Shown here one piece after another: positions 53,546 to 62,976 of a stretch of DNA of 64,000 nt. The position numbers and the translations under genes were made by a program. Position 1 is the stretch's first letter. Each line of letters opens with the position of its first letter. Below the pieces are notes generated by a model that searched no databases, was not told the origin of the DNA, and saw only the letters and a list, made by a program, of their open reading frames with translations. This DNA comes from Ruminococcus sp. (lineage in GTDB: Bacteria > Bacillota > Clostridia > Oscillospirales > Ruminococcaceae): assembly GCA_017525915.1 (NCBI GenBank), contig JAFXSC010000022.1:310001-374000 (forward strand), written 5' to 3'.

Positions 53546-54238
53546 TCAGACTTTCTCCGGCGTAAGGGCATATCTGTCAAAGATACCGTCCGAAAGCTCT
53601 ATCGCCTCCGGCTTGACCTTCTTGCTGATGATGTCCCAGTTGGGCTTTCTCGAACTGTTGTTGTGAGCATCACTGCCGAAAGTAAAGCGCTTATCGCTCG
53701 CTGTGATCTGCTTGGCAAGCTTCTTTTCGCTCCAGCTTGTAAACGCCTCGTTGTTTATCTGCATAACAGATTTGGTCGAGAGTATCAGTTCCATCTCATC
53801 CTTATTGTAATACCTCAGGTAACGATGAACGTGCGCGAGCATTATCTTAAGCTTGTACTCGGCATGGATATTGTATATCTCCTCGGCCATCCACTTCTCG
53901 TACGCTCTGTAAGGCAGCTCAAGAAGTATCATCTTCGTGCCCTCAACAGCAAGCTTCTCTATGCCGGGCACCTCAGAGATACCGTGCTCAATGGCGACCT
54001 CAGCGCCGAGGACAATATTCTTTATGGCTGCTCTGTCCTTGATCTCGTCAAAGGCAGCCTGACGCTTTCTGAGAAAGCTTTCGACCGAGGCTTCCCTGTG
54101 AGCGTAAAAATGCGGTGTAGCAATTATTCTTTCAATTCCTTGTTCCTTTAGTGTCTCTATCATCTCAAGTGATGTTTCTGCATCGCTTGCACCGTCGTCA
54201 ATACCCGGAAGTATATGGCAATGGTATTCTGTTCTCAT
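53546..54238 (-). CDS. CpsB/CapC-type PHP tyrosine-protein phosphatase
   Basis: 230-aa manganese-dependent phosphatase that removes phosphate from BY-kinase tyrosines. PHP metal ligands are visible: YHCHILPGIDDGA, ATPHFYAH, GAEVAIEHG, LAHVHRY and FGSDAHN. Compared with the usual LAHPERY, the loop reads LAHVHRY. The start overlaps the kinase stop by four bases, tying it to that kinase. Confidence 0.9.
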   Translation of the reverse strand: MRTEYHCHILPGIDDGASDAETSLEMIETLKEQGIERIIATPHFYAHREASVESFLRKRQAAFDEIKDRAAIKNIVLGAEVAIEHGISEVPGIEKLAVEGTKMILLELPYRAYEKWMAEEIYNIHAEYKLKIMLAHVHRYLRYYNKDEMELILSTKSVMQINNEAFTSWSEKKLAKQITASDKRFTFGSDAHNNSSRKPNWDIISKKVKPEAIELSDGIFDRYALTPEKV

Positions 54239-55743
54239 TTTGCAACAGCCTCTTGTTCATCGTTATCATCGGACTCAGGTTTCCTGCCGTAACCGTAGCC
54301 GTAACCGTATCCCTTCTTGTAATAATACTTGTTCTTGTACTTGTACTTGTAATATCTTCCGCTGTGCTTTGTCTTGACGTCATTCATGATGAAGCCGAGC
54401 ATATTCATCTGCGCGAACTCTATCTTCTTGTTTGCCGCTTCAACGTCGTCCGTTGTGGTCTTACCATATCTGAGGACCAGTACGATACCGGAGATGTACT
54501 TTGCAAGCTCCATAGCATCTGTAACTATATTTACAGGAGGTGTATCAATAACGATCGTTGAATACTCAGTGCTGAGCTTGTCAAGTATAGCGCCCATCTG
54601 CTCGGAAGCAAGCAGCTCCGAAGGGTTAGGCGGGATAGGACCCGATGTCATTACGTCAAGGTTCTCCATAACGTTCTTCTGGATGCATTCCTCAACCTTC
54701 TTCATCTTACTGATAGCAGAAGAAAGTCCCTTCTTGTTCTTCAGACCGAATACTTTATGCTGTGTGGATTTACGCATATCCGCATCTATAAGGAGGACCT
54801 TGTTGCCGCCCTGAGCGAGAGCAATAGCGATATTGGCAGATGTTGTGGATTTTCCCTCGCCGGGATTAGGTGAGGATACTGCGAAAATCTTCCTGTCCAC
54901 CGTTGAAAGTGAGAAGGATACGTTTGTACGGATTGACTTGTAGCTCTCAACGATATTGAACGGAACATCCTTATCCGTAAGCTTTACATGATCGTCCTCA
55001 TCGGACTCTTTCTTCTTTCTTTCGCCGAACTGCTGGATCTCTCCGAGAACAGGCTTCTTGTAGTGCTGTGCTACATAGTCGGTATCCTTAACTGTGCTGT
55101 CGAAGAAGTCGATAAGGATAATAACGAGACAGGTAAGGAAAAGTGCCGCAACTGCTCCGAGGATAGTATTCTTGGTCTTGTTCGGAGCAACAGGATTATT
55201 GTATACCTTTGCCTCGTCGATAGTATTGATCGAGCCGACGCCTACTGCCTTTTCAACATATTCCGGTGCAACAAGTGCGAGGTCGTTGCATACAGCAGCG
55301 GAAACCTTGGCGTTCTTGGTTGTAGCTGTGACCTTTATAGCTGAAGTGTCCTGAACCGATCTTATTCCTAAACAGCCGCGTATTGCGCCGGGAGAGACCT
55401 TGCCGTTTGCAGCGCCGAAGCAATCCTTAAGAACGTCAGCATCAAACTGCTTTGCAAGCTCCTCGCCTACTGCTGTGAGAACGGCGTCGTCCTTAAGTAC
55501 CTCCATGTATGTATTAACAAGCTGCTTGGAATTGCTGATGCTGTTGTAACTGCTTGCAGAACTTTCTACGATACCGGTATAGCTCTGTACATACATCGTT
55601 ACATGAGAGGAATATTTCAGCGGCATTACGAATTTGGAATAGCTGAAAGCCGCTGCTGCCCCCGCAATAGTGAGCAGAACGATCAGAAGGAGCTTTTCCT
55701 TGAGAAGAATGAAAATATCCTTGATTGAATAACTGTTGTCCAT
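54235..55743 (-). CDS. Fused Wzz/BY-kinase (CpsC-CpsD type)
   Basis: 502-aa bacterial tyrosine kinase that controls capsule or exopolysaccharide export and length. The Wzz domain with two membrane helices (about 17-36 and 192-212) is fused to the kinase. Walker A is PNPGEGKST (about 292-300), A' is LLIDADMRKS and B is TIVIDTPPV. The C-terminal tyrosine cluster (about 460-490) is unusually rich: RYYKYKYKNKYYYKKGYGYG, then YGYGR, the expected autophosphorylation site. In most Firmicutes CpsC and CpsD are separate proteins. Confidence 0.93.
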   Translation of the reverse strand: MDNSYSIKDIFILLKEKLLLIVLLTIAGAAAAFSYSKFVMPLKYSSHVTMYVQSYTGIVESSASSYNSISNSKQLVNTYMEVLKDDAVLTAVGEELAKQFDADVLKDCFGAANGKVSPGAIRGCLGIRSVQDTSAIKVTATTKNAKVSAAVCNDLALVAPEYVEKAVGVGSINTIDEAKVYNNPVAPNKTKNTILGAVAALFLTCLVIILIDFFDSTVKDTDYVAQHYKKPVLGEIQQFGERKKKESDEDDHVKLTDKDVPFNIVESYKSIRTNVSFSLSTVDRKIFAVSSPNPGEGKSTTSANIAIALAQGGNKVLLIDADMRKSTQHKVFGLKNKKGLSSAISKMKKVEECIQKNVMENLDVMTSGPIPPNPSELLASEQMGAILDKLSTEYSTIVIDTPPVNIVTDAMELAKYISGIVLVLRYGKTTTDDVEAANKKIEFAQMNMLGFIMNDVKTKHSGRYYKYKYKNKYYYKKGYGYGYGYGRKPESDDNDEQEAVAK

Positions 55744-55764
55744 ATATCAGAAAGTCCTTTCATT

Positions 55765-57699
55765 TCAGCTTGCCGCACCGACAAGCAGATATTTCTTATT
55801 GAATTCATCAGGAGTTATGAAAGTGGGCACCATTTCATGAAGAGCCTGTATTGCGATATCATCATTATTCTGCATTGCTGCATCACGCAGTCTTCTCAGA
55901 TCCTCGATGAACTTATCGGCGTCAATATCTATCTGTTTACCTATGAAAATGAGCTTGTTCTTTGTCTTCTGGAGTCCCTCCTCATTCATAAGGAGCTCCT
56001 CCTTGATCTTCTCACCGGGACGAAGTCCGGTGAATTCGATCTTGACATCTTTATAGGGGACCTTGCCGTACATTCTGATGAGATTCTCAGCAAGTGCAAC
56101 GATACGGACAGGCTGTCCCATATCGAGGACGAATATCTCGCCACCGTGAGCGATGGCAGCTGCCTCAATTACAAGGCTGACTGCCTCCGGGATTGTCATG
56201 AAGTAGCGGATGATATCCGGGTGAGTTACAGTAACAGGCTTGCCCTGTTCTATCTGACGCTTGAATATCGGTATTACCGAACCGTTCGAGCCGAGGACGT
56301 TTCCGAAGCGTGTCGTCACGAATTCGGTACTGCAATTCTCCTGCTGTGAGAGGTACTGTACTATCATCTCGCAGCAGCGCTTTGAAGCGCCCATGACGTT
56401 GGTGGGATTAACCGCCTTGTCGGTGGAGATCATGACGAACTTCTCGCATCTGTGGAACTGTGCAAGGGTCGCAGTATTGAAGGTGCCGATTACGTTGTTC
56501 TTTATAGCCTCCATCGGGCTCTCCTCCATGAGAGGAACGTGCTTGTGGGCAGCCGCATGGAAAACGATATCGGGCTTATATCTTGTGAAGAGCTGATTCA
56601 TACGGTAGTAATCACGGACGGAAGCTATCTTCGTTACGAGATTGAGGTCGCTGCCGTACTCCATTATGAGCTCCTGCTGGATATCATAGGCATTATTCTC
56701 ATATATATCAACGATAATTACCTGCTTCGGGGAATACTTTGCGATCTGACGGACGAGCTCGGAGCCTATCGAACCGCCGCCGCCTGTTACCATGCAGACC
56801 TTTCCGCTTATGAAATCACGGATGTCCTTATTGTCAAAGCGTATCGGCTCGCGTCCGAGAAGGTCCTCGACCCTGATATCGCGGACGTGGCTGAGGAGAG
56901 TCGTATGCTCATCATCGAAAATGAGATTGCCGAGGAAGGGTATGACCTTTATCGGAAGCTTTGTGTCTGAGCATATATCAAGGATACGCTTTCTCTCGTC
57001 CTCAAGGCATGAAGGTATGCAGAAAACTATCTGCTCTATCTCAAACTCGGAGATATACTTGTTTATTTCAGCAGTCGTACCGACTATCTGGACGCCCTCG
57101 ACTGACTTACCGATCTTGCTTCGGTCGTCGTCTATTATGCACATCGGCTCGAACATAGCTGGTCCCTTGTCTTCACTGTAAGGCGAATTCTTCGCATTGT
57201 TCAGCTCGGAAAGGAGCATCTGGCAGGCGTGACCGCCGCCAATGACCATAGTTCTTATGTATTTCGACTCTTTTTTACCAGCGTTGGTGAGATCTATAAA
57301 GGTACACTTGAACAGAAATCTGAACATACAAACGCCGCATATTGCTACGAGCGCATGGAGCATAGCGTATCTCAGAGGAACATCACCGTGAAGTATATAA
57401 GTAAATATACAAGAGAACGTGATACCGAGCGTTATGCCGTTAACACAGGAAAGGTAGTCCTTTTTGTTGAAATACCGCCAAAGCTTGTTATACGCACCGA
57501 AGATGGCAAGACCGGCAAGGCAGGTAAAAACAGATACGCCAATACTTGAGGCGAGCTGGCGGTTCGTAAGGCCGTCTTTCAGAGCATCAAGCACAAAATC
57601 AGATATCAGAGCTGCAACTGTCACAATAAACGCGTCGGCTATCGCAAGCATCAGCTTGCGGTATTTAAATTTCTGCAATACTAATTTCAATAAAACCAT
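55765..57699 (-). CDS. Membrane UDP-sugar 4,6-dehydratase (CapD/PglF-like)
   Basis: 644-aa protein. Four N-terminal membrane helices (about 15-135) are followed by a CoA-binding-like Rossmann domain (about 145-260). The extended SDR dehydratase domain starts at CMVTGGGGSIGSELVRQIA (about 299), with the catalytic STDKAVNPTNVMGASKR. The Tyr of classical SDR enzymes is Met, as in CapD/PglF. It makes UDP-4-keto-6-deoxy sugars for surface glycans. The annotated ATG is only one base after AAAGGA; TTG 57690 would fit the ribosome binding site better. Confidence 0.93.
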   Translation of the reverse strand: MVLLKLVLQKFKYRKLMLAIADAFIVTVAALISDFVLDALKDGLTNRQLASSIGVSVFTCLAGLAIFGAYNKLWRYFNKKDYLSCVNGITLGITFSCIFTYILHGDVPLRYAMLHALVAICGVCMFRFLFKCTFIDLTNAGKKESKYIRTMVIGGGHACQMLLSELNNAKNSPYSEDKGPAMFEPMCIIDDDRSKIGKSVEGVQIVGTTAEINKYISEFEIEQIVFCIPSCLEDERKRILDICSDTKLPIKVIPFLGNLIFDDEHTTLLSHVRDIRVEDLLGREPIRFDNKDIRDFISGKVCMVTGGGGSIGSELVRQIAKYSPKQVIIVDIYENNAYDIQQELIMEYGSDLNLVTKIASVRDYYRMNQLFTRYKPDIVFHAAAHKHVPLMEESPMEAIKNNVIGTFNTATLAQFHRCEKFVMISTDKAVNPTNVMGASKRCCEMIVQYLSQQENCSTEFVTTRFGNVLGSNGSVIPIFKRQIEQGKPVTVTHPDIIRYFMTIPEAVSLVIEAAAIAHGGEIFVLDMGQPVRIVALAENLIRMYGKVPYKDVKIEFTGLRPGEKIKEELLMNEEGLQKTKNKLIFIGKQIDIDADKFIEDLRRLRDAAMQNNDDIAIQALHEMVPTFITPDEFNKKYLLVGAAS

Positions 57700-58034: not shown

Positions 58035-58063
58035 TTGACAAATCCTGCCGCTCATGTTATCAT
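58035..58063 (+). promoter_or_regulatory. Promoter of the kinase-peptidase-exporter cassette
   Basis: TTGACA (58035-58040), 17-bp spacer, TATCAT (58058-58063), 70 bases before the leader mini-ORF. Confidence 0.8.
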
Positions 58064-58072
58064 AGTAAAGGT

Positions 58073-58131
58073 ACGGCAGGCGGCTCGGAGCTGTCCTGCC
58101 GTTATGTATTACGCCGTCTTTAAGAGGCGGC
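58073..58131 (+). promoter_or_regulatory. Two-hairpin leader of the cassette
   Basis: Hairpin 1 is ACGGCAGG/CCTGCCGT (58073-58080 and 58095-58102). Hairpin 2 is GCCGTCT/AGGCGGC (58113-58119 and 58125-58131, one G-U), whose 3' arm contains most of the ribosome binding site of the mini-ORF at 58133. No T-run follows either, so translational control is more likely than termination. Confidence 0.55.
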
Positions 58132-58132
58132 A

Positions 58133-58153
58133 ATGAAGGCTGTGATAAAATGA
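58133..58153 (+). CDS. Leader mini-ORF MKAVIK overlapping the kinase start
   Basis: Six-codon ORF with AAGAGG five bases before its ATG and a TGA that overlaps the kinase ATG (ATGA). The kinase itself lacks a good ribosome binding site, so this mini-ORF probably delivers ribosomes to it by translational coupling. Confidence 0.45.
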   Translation: MKAVIK

Positions 58154-58881
58154 TTACCCGAAACTATAAAATAGCCGGAAAGGTCGTTGAGATATCGTCT
58201 CTGCTCAATGATGTTCACGATTACTGTGCTGACTACCTTACCGACGAACCTGCTGATTACTCCGTTGTGACTTCGATGGACGATATTGTTTTTGAACGCG
58301 AAAAGTCCGCGCACGAAAATGAGCTCGAAGGCAGACCTGTCCATTATTATCCGGACGGCTACCTTGAGGAACTTGCGGTATACCGTAAAATCGCCGATAA
58401 AATGCTCGACTATGACACGATACTCTTCCACGGCTCGGTCATTGCAGTTGACGGTCAGGGGTATCTTTTCACTGCCAAATCAGGCACAGGAAAATCCACC
58501 CACACAAGTCTCTGGATGAAATACTTCGGCGATAAAGCCGTTATGGTCAACGATGACAAGCCTCTCCTTGCTGTCACTGAGGAAGGCGTTACTGCCTACG
58601 GTACACCTTATAACGGCAAGCACAGGCGCGGCGCAAATATTTCAGTTCCGCTGAAAGCGATATGTATTCTCACAAGAGCTGAGAATAATTCAATTGCTCC
58701 CGTCCTGCCGATACAGGTCTATCCCCTGCTCATACAGCAGGTGAACCGTCCCGCTGACCCTTTGAAGATGCAGAAAACACTTGAACTCGTCGACAGACTT
58801 TCAGAAAAGACAAAGCTGTACAAGCTCGGCTGCAACATGGATATCTCCGCAGCCGTTACCGCATATGAGGGAATGAGATGA
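58150..58881 (+). CDS. HPr-kinase-like P-loop protein
   Basis: 243-aa protein related to the C-terminal domain of HPr kinase/phosphorylase. The P-loop is AKSGTGKSTH (about 109-118), with VMVNDDKPLL as the following acidic motif (D135, D136) and FHGSVIAVDGQGYLFTAK before it. It lacks the HPr kinase N-terminal domain and shows no homology to PTS context. HPr-kinase-like enzymes of this kind occur in peptide maturation clusters, for example a lasso-peptide serine kinase, which is the reason to suspect a peptide-modifying kinase here. The adjacent genes are a peptidase and an exporter. No sugar phosphotransferase gene is nearby. Confidence 0.8.
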   Translation: MITRNYKIAGKVVEISSLLNDVHDYCADYLTDEPADYSVVTSMDDIVFEREKSAHENELEGRPVHYYPDGYLEELAVYRKIADKMLDYDTILFHGSVIAVDGQGYLFTAKSGTGKSTHTSLWMKYFGDKAVMVNDDKPLLAVTEEGVTAYGTPYNGKHRRGANISVPLKAICILTRAENNSIAPVLPIQVYPLLIQQVNRPADPLKMQKTLELVDRLSEKTKLYKLGCNMDISAAVTAYEGMR

Positions 58882-59318
58882 CGAAATTTGAAGATATTAT
58901 CGAACGTGACGGCAAGCTTATTTACACCAACGTCGGAAACAGTATGCGTCCCCTGATACGTCAGGACAAGGACCTTCTCATTATCGAAAAGCCGTACGGC
59001 AGACTGAAAAAATATGACGTTCCGCTCTATAAGCGTGACAACGGGCAGTACGTCCTCCACAGGGTACTGAAGGTACGGAAGAACGACTATGTTATCTGCG
59101 GCGACAACCGTTACAAGAAGGAATACGGCATCTCCGACCGCCATATCATCGGCGTTCTCACTGCGGTCGTCCGCGACGGCAAGGAAGTTTCCGTCGATAA
59201 CAGAAAATACAGACTTTATGTGCATCTCTGGTGCGGCATTTTCCCGCTGAGAGCGCTTATACTCTGGACAGCAGCGCTCCCGGGACGTATCAGAAGAAAA
59301 CTCGCAAGGAGGGCTTGA
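58878..59318 (+). CDS. S24/S26-type signal-peptidase-like protein
   Basis: 146-aa protein with the signal peptidase core: catalytic Ser22 in TNVGNSMRPLI, a His61 in YVLHRVLKV where bacterial SPase I has Lys (a Ser-His dyad as in SipW/ER type), and the CGDNRYKKEYG box. A hydrophobic C-terminal segment (WCGIFPLRALILWTAALPG) may anchor it. It begins 4 bases before the kinase stop (ATGA overlap) and is followed by the mini-ORF and the ABC exporter. It may release or trim the exported peptide. Confidence 0.82.
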   Translation: MTKFEDIIERDGKLIYTNVGNSMRPLIRQDKDLLIIEKPYGRLKKYDVPLYKRDNGQYVLHRVLKVRKNDYVICGDNRYKKEYGISDRHIIGVLTAVVRDGKEVSVDNRKYRLYVHLWCGIFPLRALILWTAALPGRIRRKLARRA

Positions 59319-59362
59319 TGTGTTCAGTTCAGTTTACAGCGATGTGTCCGGCATATGCCTGA
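59318..59362 (+). CDS. 14-codon mini-ORF MCSVQFTAMCPAYA (candidate peptide or coupler)
   Basis: ATG 59318 overlaps the peptidase stop (TGATG) and has AAGGAGGGCTTG directly upstream, one of the best ribosome binding sites in the window. The ORF ends at TGA 59360-59362, two bases before the ABC exporter candidate start at 59364. The product has Cys2 and Cys10. Either a very short exported peptide or a coupler for the exporter, which lacks its own ribosome binding site. Confidence 0.45.
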   Translation: MCSVQFTAMCPAYA

Positions 59363-61085
59363 TATGGGAATACAGGCCATGAAGAACAATGCTACAAAAT
59401 GGCTTTTTGATGTACCAAAAAAGAAAAAGCTCTATATACTGTTACTCTCGCTGATCCAGGCGGTCTACGGCGCAAGCGGAGTGTTCTATGCGATACTTCT
59501 CCGAAGTCTCGTAGATTCCGCCACTAAACATGATTCCAATGCTTTCTGGTTCTACGCACTTGCGATCATGCTGCTCGTTCTCGGTCAGATTCTTCTCCGT
59601 GCTGTCATACGCTGGCTCAATGAGCTGTCAAAAGCTACATTTGAGAATATCTTCAAGCAGCGTCTGATGTCCAATATCCTCCGCAAGGATTTCGGCAGCG
59701 TGAACGCGATACACTCCGGCGAATGGCTCAACCGCCTCACAAACGACACTGTTGTCATTGCGGAAGGATATGTCGAGATAATTCCCGGTATTGTCGGAAT
59801 GGTTGTGAAGATGGTCAGCGCACTCATCATGATGATAGCGATCGACTGGCACTTTGCCTGCGTTCTCCTGCCCGGCGGAGTGCTGATGCTCGTCCTGACC
59901 TACATCTTCCGCAAGGCTATGAAGAAGCTCCACAAATCTGTTCAGGAGAACGACGGAAAGCTCAGGATATTCCTTCAGGAACGCATCAGCAGCATGATGA
60001 TCATTCGCTCATTCGCTACTGAGGACGAGACCGAAGCAGAAGCGGTCAGCCGCATGAAAGACCATAAAGATGCCAGAATGAAGCGGAATCATTATTCCAA
60101 TCTGTGCAACATAGGTCTCGGCTTAGCTATGAACGGTATGTACCTGTTCGGCGTCGCCTACTGCGGCTACGGCATACTCAAAGGCAGGATCACTTTCGGT
60201 ACGCTTACCGCAGTTACACAGCTCATTTCGCAGATACAGGCGCCTCTTGCAAGCTTATCCGGATACCTCCCGAAATTCTACGCGATGACAGCAAGCGCTG
60301 AGCGTCTCATGGAGATAGAAGATTTCGCAGATGACTGTGAAGGCACTCCAAAGGATATCTCAGAGGTCAGAGAGTTCTATACAGGAAGGCTCGCATCGTT
60401 CGGTCTTAAAAATGCTGATTTCACCTATTATCCGGCAGTTGAAAGCATCAACGCTCTTTCAAAGGAGGCGATGCCGACTGTTCTGAATAATATCAGCATC
60501 GATATCCGGAAGGGCGAGTACGTCGCGTTTATGGGACACAGCGGATGCGGAAAATCAACTGTTCTCAAGCTACTGATGAGCATCTACAAGCTCGACAGCG
60601 GTGAGCGATATATCACCGAGACGGACGGAACGGTCAAGCCGCTCTCCTCGGAATGGCACAGGCTTTTTGCATATGTTCCGCAGGGCAATCAGCTAATGTC
60701 CGGAACGATACGCGACGTTATAGCATTTGCCGACAAGTCTGCTGCCAATGACAGCGAACGCATCGGGAAGGCTCTGACAATAGCCTGCGCTGACGAATTC
60801 ATTTCAGGTCTTGAAAACGGCATAGATACCCAGCTCGGCGAGCGCGGAACGGGTCTCTCCGAGGGACAGATGCAGAGAATTGCGATCGCAAGGGCTATAT
60901 TCAGTGAAAGTCCAATTCTTCTTCTTGATGAATCAACAAGCGCTCTCGATGAACTCACTGAGAAAAAGCTTTTGCAGAACCTTAAAAACATGACCGACAA
61001 GACAGTAGTCATCGTTACACACCGCACTGCAGCTCTTGCAATCTGCGACAGAACCATTGATTTCACAGGCCTCATATCCAAATAA
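59355..61085 (+). CDS. ABC exporter, fused membrane and ATPase domains
   Basis: 576-aa half-transporter of the peptide/lipid exporter type. About six membrane helices (to residue 310) precede the nucleotide-binding domain: Walker A GHSGCGKST, signature GLSEGQMQRIAIARAI, Walker B ILLLDESTSALDE and H-loop VTHR. No C39 peptidase domain is present, so leader removal, if any, would fall to the adjacent S24/S26-type protein. ATGs at 59355, 59364 and 59379 are possible; none has a strong ribosome binding site, and the mini-ORF upstream may supply ribosomes. A terminator follows directly. Confidence 0.9.
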   Translation: MPDMGIQAMKNNATKWLFDVPKKKKLYILLLSLIQAVYGASGVFYAILLRSLVDSATKHDSNAFWFYALAIMLLVLGQILLRAVIRWLNELSKATFENIFKQRLMSNILRKDFGSVNAIHSGEWLNRLTNDTVVIAEGYVEIIPGIVGMVVKMVSALIMMIAIDWHFACVLLPGGVLMLVLTYIFRKAMKKLHKSVQENDGKLRIFLQERISSMMIIRSFATEDETEAEAVSRMKDHKDARMKRNHYSNLCNIGLGLAMNGMYLFGVAYCGYGILKGRITFGTLTAVTQLISQIQAPLASLSGYLPKFYAMTASAERLMEIEDFADDCEGTPKDISEVREFYTGRLASFGLKNADFTYYPAVESINALSKEAMPTVLNNISIDIRKGEYVAFMGHSGCGKSTVLKLLMSIYKLDSGERYITETDGTVKPLSSEWHRLFAYVPQGNQLMSGTIRDVIAFADKSAANDSERIGKALTIACADEFISGLENGIDTQLGERGTGLSEGQMQRIAIARAIFSESPILLLDESTSALDELTEKKLLQNLKNMTDKTVVIVTHRTAALAICDRTIDFTGLISK

Positions 61086-61088
61086 AAC

Positions 61089-61110
61089 AAGGCTCCCATA
61101 CGGGAGCCTT
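61089..61110. terminator. Bidirectional terminator, ABC exporter / hisE
   Basis: Perfect 9-bp stem AAGGCTCCC/GGGAGCCTT with loop ATAC, then TTATC on the plus side and TTGTTTTATT on the minus side; four bases after the exporter stop. Confidence 0.85.
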
Positions 61111-61113
61111 TTA

Positions 61114-61452
61114 TCATGTATTCTTGTCAACGGTATGGAACTTCTTGAGGTTGCCAATCTTCTCGTTTCTCTCGTCGAGAACCTTCTCAACGTCTGTCCA
61201 TTCAAGTCCCTGATTGGCGCAAAGCACCATAACGTGATAGAGCAGGTCATTTATCTCGTTCATGAGTTCGTTGTTGTCGCCGTTCTTCGCTGCGATAACG
61301 GTCTCGGTAGCTTCCTCGCCGACCTTCTTGCATATCTTGTCGATCCCCTTGTCAAAGAGATAGCAGGTGTATGAATTCTCCGCAGCAGTACCGTTCTCAT
61401 ACTGCTTCTTTCTCTCCTTTATAACTTCAAAAATCTCCTGATAAACGTTCAT
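61114..61452 (-). CDS. hisE: Phosphoribosyl-ATP pyrophosphatase
   Basis: 112-aa MazG-fold enzyme, second step of histidine synthesis. It has [20 protein letters not shown] followed by EATE and [16 protein letters not shown]. It starts four bases before the end of hisI (ATGA overlap). Confidence 0.95.
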
Positions 61453-61802
61453 ATTTCATTTTCCTCCGTATTGTATATTTCATTAAAGAAGCAGCTGTAA
61501 CTGCCGGTGTGACAGGCTGCTCCGGTCTGCTCAACGTTCACGAGAAGCGTGTCGTTGTCACAGTCGCCGTATATGGATACCACCTTCTGAACGTGTCCGG
61601 AGGTAGCTCCCTTATTCCAGTATTCCTGACGTGAACGGCTCCAGAACCATGTGTAGCCGGTCTCGAGGGTCTTTTTCAGGCTCTCCTTGTTCATATACGC
61701 GAGCATGAGAACTGTTTTCGTGTTGACCTCATAGCATATTGCCGGGATAAGCTCGCTCTTAACGAAGAACTTATCGAGGTCATTCAGGTCTATCTTTACC
61801 AT
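61449..61802 (-). CDS. hisI: Phosphoribosyl-AMP cyclohydrolase
   Basis: 117-aa zinc enzyme, third step of histidine synthesis, with [31 protein letters not shown] and the zinc-binding [17 protein letters not shown] 61802 has GGAAGGCGG upstream and is preferred to ATG 61817. hisI and hisE are separate genes here rather than the fused HisIE of many bacteria. Confidence 0.95.
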
Positions 61803-61818
61803 TTTTCCGCCTTCCATA

Positions 61819-62217
61819 TCAATAGTCTATCCACCACTCCGGCGTTATCTCGCCGAGAGTTATGACCTTGCCCTTGCTGTAATCGAGCATTATCTCGATA
61901 TCCTTGTAGCTCCCGGGCATGAGCTGCACCATAAGCTCCCGGCAGGCTCCGCAGGGAGCACCTTTGCCCTCAACAGGAGGTATGCACAGCAGCCGTGCTA
62001 TCTCGTTATCGCCGTTGGTTATCATGTTGAATATCGCATTCCTCTCGGCGCAAATGCCAAGTGTGGAACAGGTGTCGATGCAGACACCGGTGTATATCTT
62101 TCCGGACTTGCTGAGAACTGCCGCAGAGACTTCTCCGGCGGTAACATATTCAGATACGCGGCGCGGTGCGAGCACCGCCTTTGCCGCCGCGTACATTTCT
62201 TCCCATATCTTATCCAT
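61819..62217 (-). CDS. Cytidine-deaminase-like protein within the his operon
   Basis: 132-aa zinc deaminase-fold protein with the proton-shuttling Glu in [10 protein letters not shown] and zinc Cys in [10 protein letters not shown]. It resembles the blasticidin-S/cytidine deaminase group. It starts 3 bases after hisF and ends 17 bases before hisI, so it is embedded in the histidine operon, which is unusual. Pyrimidine salvage is the default inference. The substrate is not predictable. Confidence 0.85.
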
Positions 62218-62220
62218 AGC

Positions 62221-62976
62221 TTACCTCACAATAACGCCCTTGCCGCGGCAGTAGTCCTTGACCTGTCCCACGGTGAGCTCTTTGAAGTGGAATAGTGAAG
62301 CCGCAAGCGCAGCTGTTGCTCCTGTCTTCTCAAATACCTCGTAGAAATCGTTTATCTTGCCTGCACCGCCGCTTGCAATGACAGGTATCGAGCAATTGTC
62401 GCAGACTGCCTTCAGCATGGGAATGTCGAAGCCCTCCTTGGTGCCGTCAGCATCAATGGAGTTGAGGCATATCTCCCCTGCCCCAAGCTTTTCTATCGTG
62501 TGTACCCACTCGATGAGGTCGAGCTTCATATCGACCCTTCCGCCGTTGATATAGACGGTCCACTTATTGTCAGCGACCTTCTTCGCGTCAATGCCGACAC
62601 ATATGCACTGACTTCCGAAGATGTCAGCACCGTCCTTTATGAGCTGCGGATTCTGCACAGCCTGAGAGTTCACGGATACCTTGTCGGCTCCGGCTCTGAG
62701 CGCCTCGCGGATATCGTCAACTGTCTTGATGCCTCCGCCTACTGTCAGCGGAACGAATACCTTCTTTGCAGTATCGCGCACCACATCAAGGAACACACCG
62801 CGCCCCTCAAATGATGCCGTGATATCGTAGAAAACTATCTCGTCCGCGCCCTGTTTATTATACTCGGCAGCGCACTCGACCGGGTCACCCACGTCGCGCA
62901 CTCCTTCAAAATTCACGCCCTTGACTACCTTGCCGCTCCGCACGTCAAGGCAGGGGATTATTCTCTTTGCAAGCAT
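62221..62976 (-). CDS. hisF: Imidazole glycerol phosphate synthase subunit HisF
   Basis: 251-aa TIM-barrel cyclase, joining glutamine-derived ammonia to PRFAR with partner HisH. Catalytic Asp residues are in [19 protein letters not shown] (Asp11) and [12 protein letters not shown]-like [23 protein letters not shown] is the C-terminal phosphate site. AGGAGGCTG precedes the ATG. hisH is not in the window. Confidence 0.96.

Follow-up and report, generated by a model that had tools for sequence, protein, structure and literature searches.

A kinase, peptidase and exporter cassette of Ruminococcus as the probable central unit of a split LPP-like peptide maturation system

Introduction

The closest described counterparts of the locus reported here are the linear polyphosphorylated peptides (LPPs), a RiPP family presented by Popov et al. 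(Nat Commun, May 2026; PMC13381572). In the available part of that paper, the reference system is lppA-K-B-S-D-N of Paenibacillus alginolyticus, and LPP systems are defined by an HprK-like kinase, a discrete RRE, a peptidase of the SpI type, an NTP-transferase, an MsbA-like exporter and precursors with a YxxP motif. The loci often lie within capsule loci, the kinase adds several phosphates to Ser3, and the peptidase requires the RRE (PMC13381572, same part). The biological role of LPPs is stated there as unknown, and the strings Ruminococc, Clostridi, Oscillospir and Lachnospir are absent from the main text. Paeninodin-type lasso peptide clusters likewise encode an HPr-kinase-like kinase, an NTP-transferase and an RRE (available text of PMC13381572 and PMC7533575), and among the prochlorosins one enzyme, ProcM, serves many precursors (available text of PMC10783134).

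The DNA analysed here, called the window, is a stretch of 64,000 nucleotides from Ruminococcus sp. It carries a kinase, a peptidase and an exporter gene, which an initial annotation had read as a candidate peptide system of no recognised class. The proposed role in peptide maturation and export was right in kind, and a conserved small ORF accompanies the cassette in relatives. The classification did not last, as the combination matches the kinase-peptidase-exporter half of an LPP-like system, of the family published in May 2026 (PMC13381572, in its available part). We propose, with a probability of roughly 0.8, that the cassette forms the core of an LPP-like RiPP maturation and export system, the remaining parts of which lie dispersed across the chromosome. 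Genes are abbreviated as A (precursor), B (RRE), K (kinase), S (peptidase), D (exporter) and N (NTP-transferase).

Results

The cassette and its surroundings

The following features were assigned in the window:

53546..57699, minus strand: divergent capsule genes (CpsB/CapC, Wzz + AAA, Polysacc_synt_2), neighbourhood outside the cassette
58035..58063, plus strand: promoter-like site TTGACA-17-TATCAT with extended -10 (11/12 consensus matches)
58073..58147, plus strand: 5' leader, predicted to fold into two strong RNA hairpins
58150..58881, plus strand: LppK-like peptide kinase of the HPr kinase fold, 243 aa (HMM matches, motifs, AlphaFold2)
58878..59318, plus strand: LppS-like leader peptidase of the signal peptidase I type, 146 aa (TIGR02228 best, conserved residues)
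59379..61085, plus strand: LppD-like MsbA-type ABC exporter (PF00664, 9.6e-35; PF00005, 5.7e-26)
61089..61110, no strand assigned: terminator-like hairpin between the cassette and convergent his-like genes (scored on the minus strand)

That the kinase, peptidase and exporter genes constitute one plus-strand cassette with a promoter and a terminator, as first annotated, largely holds. The 11/12-consensus site and the terminal hairpin are present, but promoter-like sites of this kind are no commoner across the region than expected by chance. The convergent minus-strand genes at 61114-62976 are presumably hisE, hisI, a cytidine deaminase gene and hisF. The kinase matched TIGR04249 ScmC (E 1.3e-7) as well as models of HPr kinase, none of the matches reaching the curated cut-off; a Walker A sequence (GTGKSTH) and NDDKP are conserved, and the AlphaFold2 model (pLDDT 95.2) has the HPr kinase/PEPCK fold. 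The best model for the peptidase was TIGR02228 (E 1.5e-5, below the curated cut-off), and its S22, H61 and D76 are invariant across 35 aligned rows. The start of the exporter was set at 59379 by alignment with a relative (G010), and no peptidase domain was found among its Pfam matches. None of the three ORFs is truncated, and their catalytic residues are conserved.

The 5' leader folds with an MFE of -34.4 kcal/mol (z -4.1), which none of 200 shuffles equalled, and the hairpin pair is possibly an attenuator or a relic of an ancestral operon. By eye, its first hairpin is like the hairpin 3' of a precursor gene on another contig of this genome (C41). The only ORF between the peptidase and exporter genes, at 59319-59362, encodes 14 aa and has a strong ribosome-binding site.

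Kinase loci in related genomes

A kinase search matched 25 of 60 genomes, own genome included, and 31 of 60 genomes of the genus, one of these by a fragment (G009). A profile scan of named genomes yielded at least 589 relatives, the best 80 of which were used, and the nearest kinases among the matches listed belong to Ruminococcus-type MAGs, many of rumen source. In all, 107 kinase loci were compared, 27 from the genome samples and 80 from the profile scan, a few species being represented more than once. Neighbouring genes were identified with profiles built from the relatives found here and with thresholds that we set ourselves; on that footing, the 77 loci flanked on each side by 2.5 kb or more had, within 6.5 kb, B in 64, S in 57, D in 47, N in 36 and A in 31. 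The window cassette is among the 13 of these loci that lack B. The commonest gene orders in the 107 loci were KBSDN and AKBSDN (12 each).

The initial annotation had asked whether a small ORF regularly lies between peptidase and exporter. Not one of the 107 gene orders compared shows this arrangement, and the 14-aa ORF of the window is absent in G010. The annotation had also reasoned that homologous cassettes devoid of any conserved small ORF, together with a kinase that clusters with ordinary PTS or HPr genes elsewhere, would speak against a peptide system. A small precursor ORF was in fact found with the cassettes, mostly upstream of the kinase gene, sometimes downstream and often far off. 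Two more distant kinase loci (L053 and L054, in G048) carry an RRE, an exporter and a CxxxCxxC protein, which we take from its motif to be radical-SAM/SPASM-like; they perhaps represent a related RiPP type.

Precursor peptides

The short precursors of the relatives share the leader YxxPEMEIIxFdxEDVITTS, followed by short, variable tails. A profile built from 11 peptides detected 12 precursors in the own genome (E <= 3.8e-8), all outside the contig of the window (444,591 bases). After removal of one row (L146) and of precursor matches with E >= 1e-3 (L130), 59 unique precursors remained, and the alignment pattern fits 58 of them. Its final position is Ser in 57, with Thr at the two preceding positions in 45 and 47; in one pattern-fitting exception the Ser follows a residue further on, and the 59th peptide is without the Phe yet ends in TTS. 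Because the pattern itself fixes Asp and V/I and the search profile contains TTS, both favour the EDVITTS block, and the one informative point is the difference between the Ser and the two Thr before it. As the LPP kinase modified Ser, and not Thr or Tyr, at the corresponding site (PMC13381572, available part), the near-invariant Ser that closes EDVITTS is a candidate phospho-acceptor.

Y..P occurs in 37 and P.{6}F in 40 of the 59 precursors. The leader motif of the Bacilli LPPs (YxxPxVLxHQxIxFETxxS, or Px9Fx[T/A]) was found in 0/59, and for this reason we call the system LPP-like and not a strict LPP member. The WxxP motif of paeninodins was also found in 0/59, which bears on the possibility that the cassette tailors a lasso peptide, as in paeninodin. 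Such a role would account for the HPr-kinase-like kinase, the NTP-transferase and the RRE, all common to paeninodin-type clusters (PMC13381572 and PMC7533575, available text). Besides lacking WxxP, the system has a leader peptidase of the signal-peptidase type, and the lasso B2 peptidase model PF13471 had no match in the own genome and matched only 4 of 60 genus genomes, two over the cut-off; a lasso role is highly improbable. In one genus genome, a PqqD match lies beside a PF13471 match (G019:C1:511100-511692), and this pair is probably a lasso cluster that coexists with the LPP-like system there.

Co-occurrence and dispersal

Precursors (E <= 1e-5) were present in 30 of 30 genus genomes with a full kinase and in 5 of 30 others (G005, G016, G023, G032 and G061), the genome with the kinase fragment being scored as negative (Fisher 5e-12, ignoring shared ancestry). 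In the order sample, with a kinase threshold of E <= 1e-20, precursors were present in 26 of 40 kinase-positive genomes versus 2 of 107 others (p 1e-16, likewise ignoring shared ancestry); the remaining 14 kinase-positive genomes had no precursor at E 1e-5.

The precursors usually lie away from the kinase. Counted among the matches listed, with those weaker than E 1e-5 left out, the genus sample held 135 precursors, 124 of them in kinase-positive genomes; 22 of the latter lie within 10 kb of the kinase gene and 102 lie farther off or on another contig, which makes remoteness the norm. Of the 30 kinase-positive genomes, 23 had one or more remote precursors, and 19 of 35 genus kinase genes have a precursor within 10 kb. 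Assembly breaks do not account for the dispersal, because in G035, an assembly of about three contigs, three of four precursors share the 3.6-Mb contig of the kinase gene yet are separated from it by over 1.2 Mb, even if that contig is circular.

Remote parts of the system

The own genome has a single kinase gene, one strong (C42) and one weak (C50) peptidase match, two RRE (PqqD) genes (C41 and C37) and two NTP-transferase genes (PF14907; C41 and C32). Neither an RRE, an NTP-transferase nor a precursor gene was found in the 20 kb surrounding the cassette, nor an RRE anywhere on its contig. Hence the remark of the initial annotation that no RRE or conventional precursor is visible was accurate for the locus and did not extend to the system, since an RRE belongs to it (64 of the 77 well-flanked loci) and both RREs and all 12 precursors are encoded on other contigs. 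With one kinase and one strong peptidase match, and with precursors and RREs remote, we infer that the enzymes act in trans.

On C41, A, B and N stand in a row. The N protein is 61, 59, 57, 55 and 50% identical to proteins of clusters with the order B-N-K and at most 47% to others, and the three best outside matches of B (68, 68 and 65%) are all in B-N-K-order clusters. This RRE also weakly matches the lasso RREs 6jx3 (E 0.0012) and 5v1u (E 0.025). The kinase tree places the window kinase in an 11-member clade (SH-aLRT 98) whose other members are four loci of B-N-K order, which are most of the clusters so arranged, three of B-K-S-D order, two from G010, and L070. Together, the affinities of C41 B and N and of the window kinase point to the split of one ancestral operon, and the plainest history would be that it broke into A-B-N and K-S-D. 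Gene order and kinase tree are not fully concordant, as the kinase of G035 lies outside the clade despite the order B-N-K-S-D. The order of the presumed ancestral operon is kept in L155, which reads C5-A-lipoprotein-B-N-K-S, the fetched stretch stopping before any exporter. In G025 no other gene of the system accompanies the kinase in 20 kb, and B, S and N are on another contig.

A split could also mean decay, the cassette being an unused K-S-D half that was separated from RRE and precursor, and the scattered precursors being relics or belonging to another process. The bare 20 kb around the cassette fit this, as does the nearest row to the window kinase in the tree (L070, support 80), which keeps kinase and peptidase and has no adjacent exporter. 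On C26, moreover, one precursor of the own genome is followed by an RRE frame broken by an early stop. Yet the three cassette ORFs are intact in length and catalytic residues, two RRE genes and 12 precursor ORFs remain in the genome, and remoteness from the kinase is typical of precursors in kinase-positive genus genomes (102 of 124 listed). We consider a decaying remnant improbable. The C26 precursor (G000:C26; L066 4246-4371) is a near copy of that on C41, and the unit with its RRE-like frame is a duplicated A-B unit in decay.

C5-domain proteins and lipoproteins

Nine of the 12 own precursors begin 15-70 nt 3' of a large gene on the same strand. Six of these nine genes encode a domain here called C5, two encode LRR proteins with no C5 match and one is an unclassified large ORF. 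The C5 domain is C-terminal and about 200 aa long (L110 5528-6175 and 21 further alignment rows); this region had no Pfam match over the cut-off in three carriers tested, and its model (pLDDT 84.0) has no clear structural relative. In the genus sample, a C5 domain ends within 250 nt upstream of 72 of 135 listed precursors, with no such end for the other 63, and a precursor follows within 250 nt of 72 of 105 C5 domains (the best 105 of 120 rows). The reverse order, a C5 domain starting within 250 nt behind a precursor, gave 0 cases in this sample. C5 was present in 25 of 30 kinase-positive versus 3 of 30 other genus genomes, and 21 of 37 precursors in the profile-scan loci (best 80 of at least 589) come after C5.

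This pairing, like the distance of 102 of 124 listed precursors from the kinase, could indicate that the EDVITTS peptides are not substrates of the cassette but occur in the same genomes as short proteins or as regulators of a leader-like kind. Against this, a precursor lies within 10 kb of 19 of 35 genus kinase genes and within 6.5 kb of the kinase in 31 of 77 well-flanked loci; the peptides are built like RiPP precursors, with variable tails behind a YxxP leader and a conserved Ser, and an RRE is present. We regard this alternative as very unlikely and take the peptides as probable substrates of the LPP-like cassette.

Lipoprotein-like ORFs also accompany the system. The fetched loci held 56 of them, 13 with a tail of the LPxxP type and 43 without. 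All 13 of the former but 7 of the latter were no more than 700 nt away from A, B or K, a comparison biased by the choice of loci for A-, B- or K-type genes. The lipoprotein sometimes shares the ELPxxP-like C-terminus of the precursor. In L133 and L139 the two C-termini are almost alike, and in most other pairs inspected they are unlike; a comparison of tails in 12 loci (p 1.5e-4) is exploratory, the tails having been chosen and cut by eye after the agreement was seen.

Discussion

By analogy with the work on Bacilli LPPs (PMC13381572, available part), a PqqD-type RRE (C41 or C37) would bind the YxxP leader of a short precursor from one of the 12 genes on other contigs, and the HPr-kinase-like enzyme (58150-58881) would phosphorylate the Ser closing EDVITTS. 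The RRE would then present the precursor to the signal-peptidase-like enzyme (58878-59318), which would remove the leader, an NTP-transferase (C41 or C32) may attach another group, and the ABC exporter (59379-61085) would export the short, hypervariable tail. Several points count against an LPP-like system. LPP cleavage needs the RRE, and the RRE is remote here; the Bacilli leader motif was found in 0/59 precursors; 5 of 30 kinase-negative genus genomes have precursors, whereas 14 of 40 kinase-positive order genomes had none at E 1e-5; 63 of 135 listed precursors lack a C5 end upstream; and the family matches of kinase and peptidase fall short of the curated cut-offs.

Since many precursors stand directly behind a large, typically secreted C5 protein, and lipoproteins are further partners, a role of the mature peptide at the cell surface, together with the C5 protein encoded directly upstream, is probable. 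This surface role, which derives from the present data alone, is the most novel and the least certain step of our reading. A more specific version is tentative and, in our view, rather doubtful: one LPP-like cassette may phosphorylate and export a fleet of peptides, each dedicated to the C5 protein that precedes it, and the peptides and tailed lipoproteins may hold or regulate those surface proteins, perhaps on the capsule. If so, these RiPPs would be dedicated partners of large surface proteins, not released antibiotics.

If the LPP-like reading is true, gene-cluster mining overlooks most members of the family, as 102 of 124 listed genus precursors are away from the kinase. The pairing of many precursors with C5-domain and LRR proteins would then be a first clue to LPP function, of value because the role is given as unknown (PMC13381572, available part). 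The question would become testable in common Clostridia of rumen and gut, with a single leader motif and a small set of genes.

Comparison with known systems

The system resembles paeninodin-type lasso clusters in its HPr-like kinase, NTP-transferase and RRE, and the paeninodin kinase phosphorylates a Ser, as proposed for this one; the system differs in having no B2 peptidase match in this genome and in carrying YxxP, not WxxP. With the prochlorosins it shares a single maturation enzyme for many precursors. Prochlorosin precursor genes are scattered, as here, and prochlorosins involve lanthipeptide chemistry, the Nif11 family and enzymes unrelated to those of this cassette.

The LPP systems are closest. 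The window cassette has the HprK-like kinase, by fold and P-loop, the MsbA-like exporter and a putative archaeal-type SpI leader peptidase with Ser-His-Asp, its TIGR02228 match being below the cut-off. LPP systems do not need the lasso leader peptidase B2, and PF13471 is unmatched at E <= 0.001 in the own genome. A discrete RRE and an NTP-transferase exist, but elsewhere in this genome, and the precursors are short, with YxxP leaders and variable C termini; capsule genes lie next door. In contrast to LPP systems, the discrete RRE is not encoded with the peptidase, the NTP-transferase is not in the cluster, the parts are split over several contigs, and 12 precursors face a single kinase. The leader here has a P, an F seven residues on and EDVITTS, versus Px9Fx[T/A]. 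The pairing with C5 proteins and tailed lipoproteins has no mention in the available part of PMC13381572. What is new in the present system is the splitting of the cluster, the dispersal of the precursors and their partnership with C5 proteins and lipoproteins.
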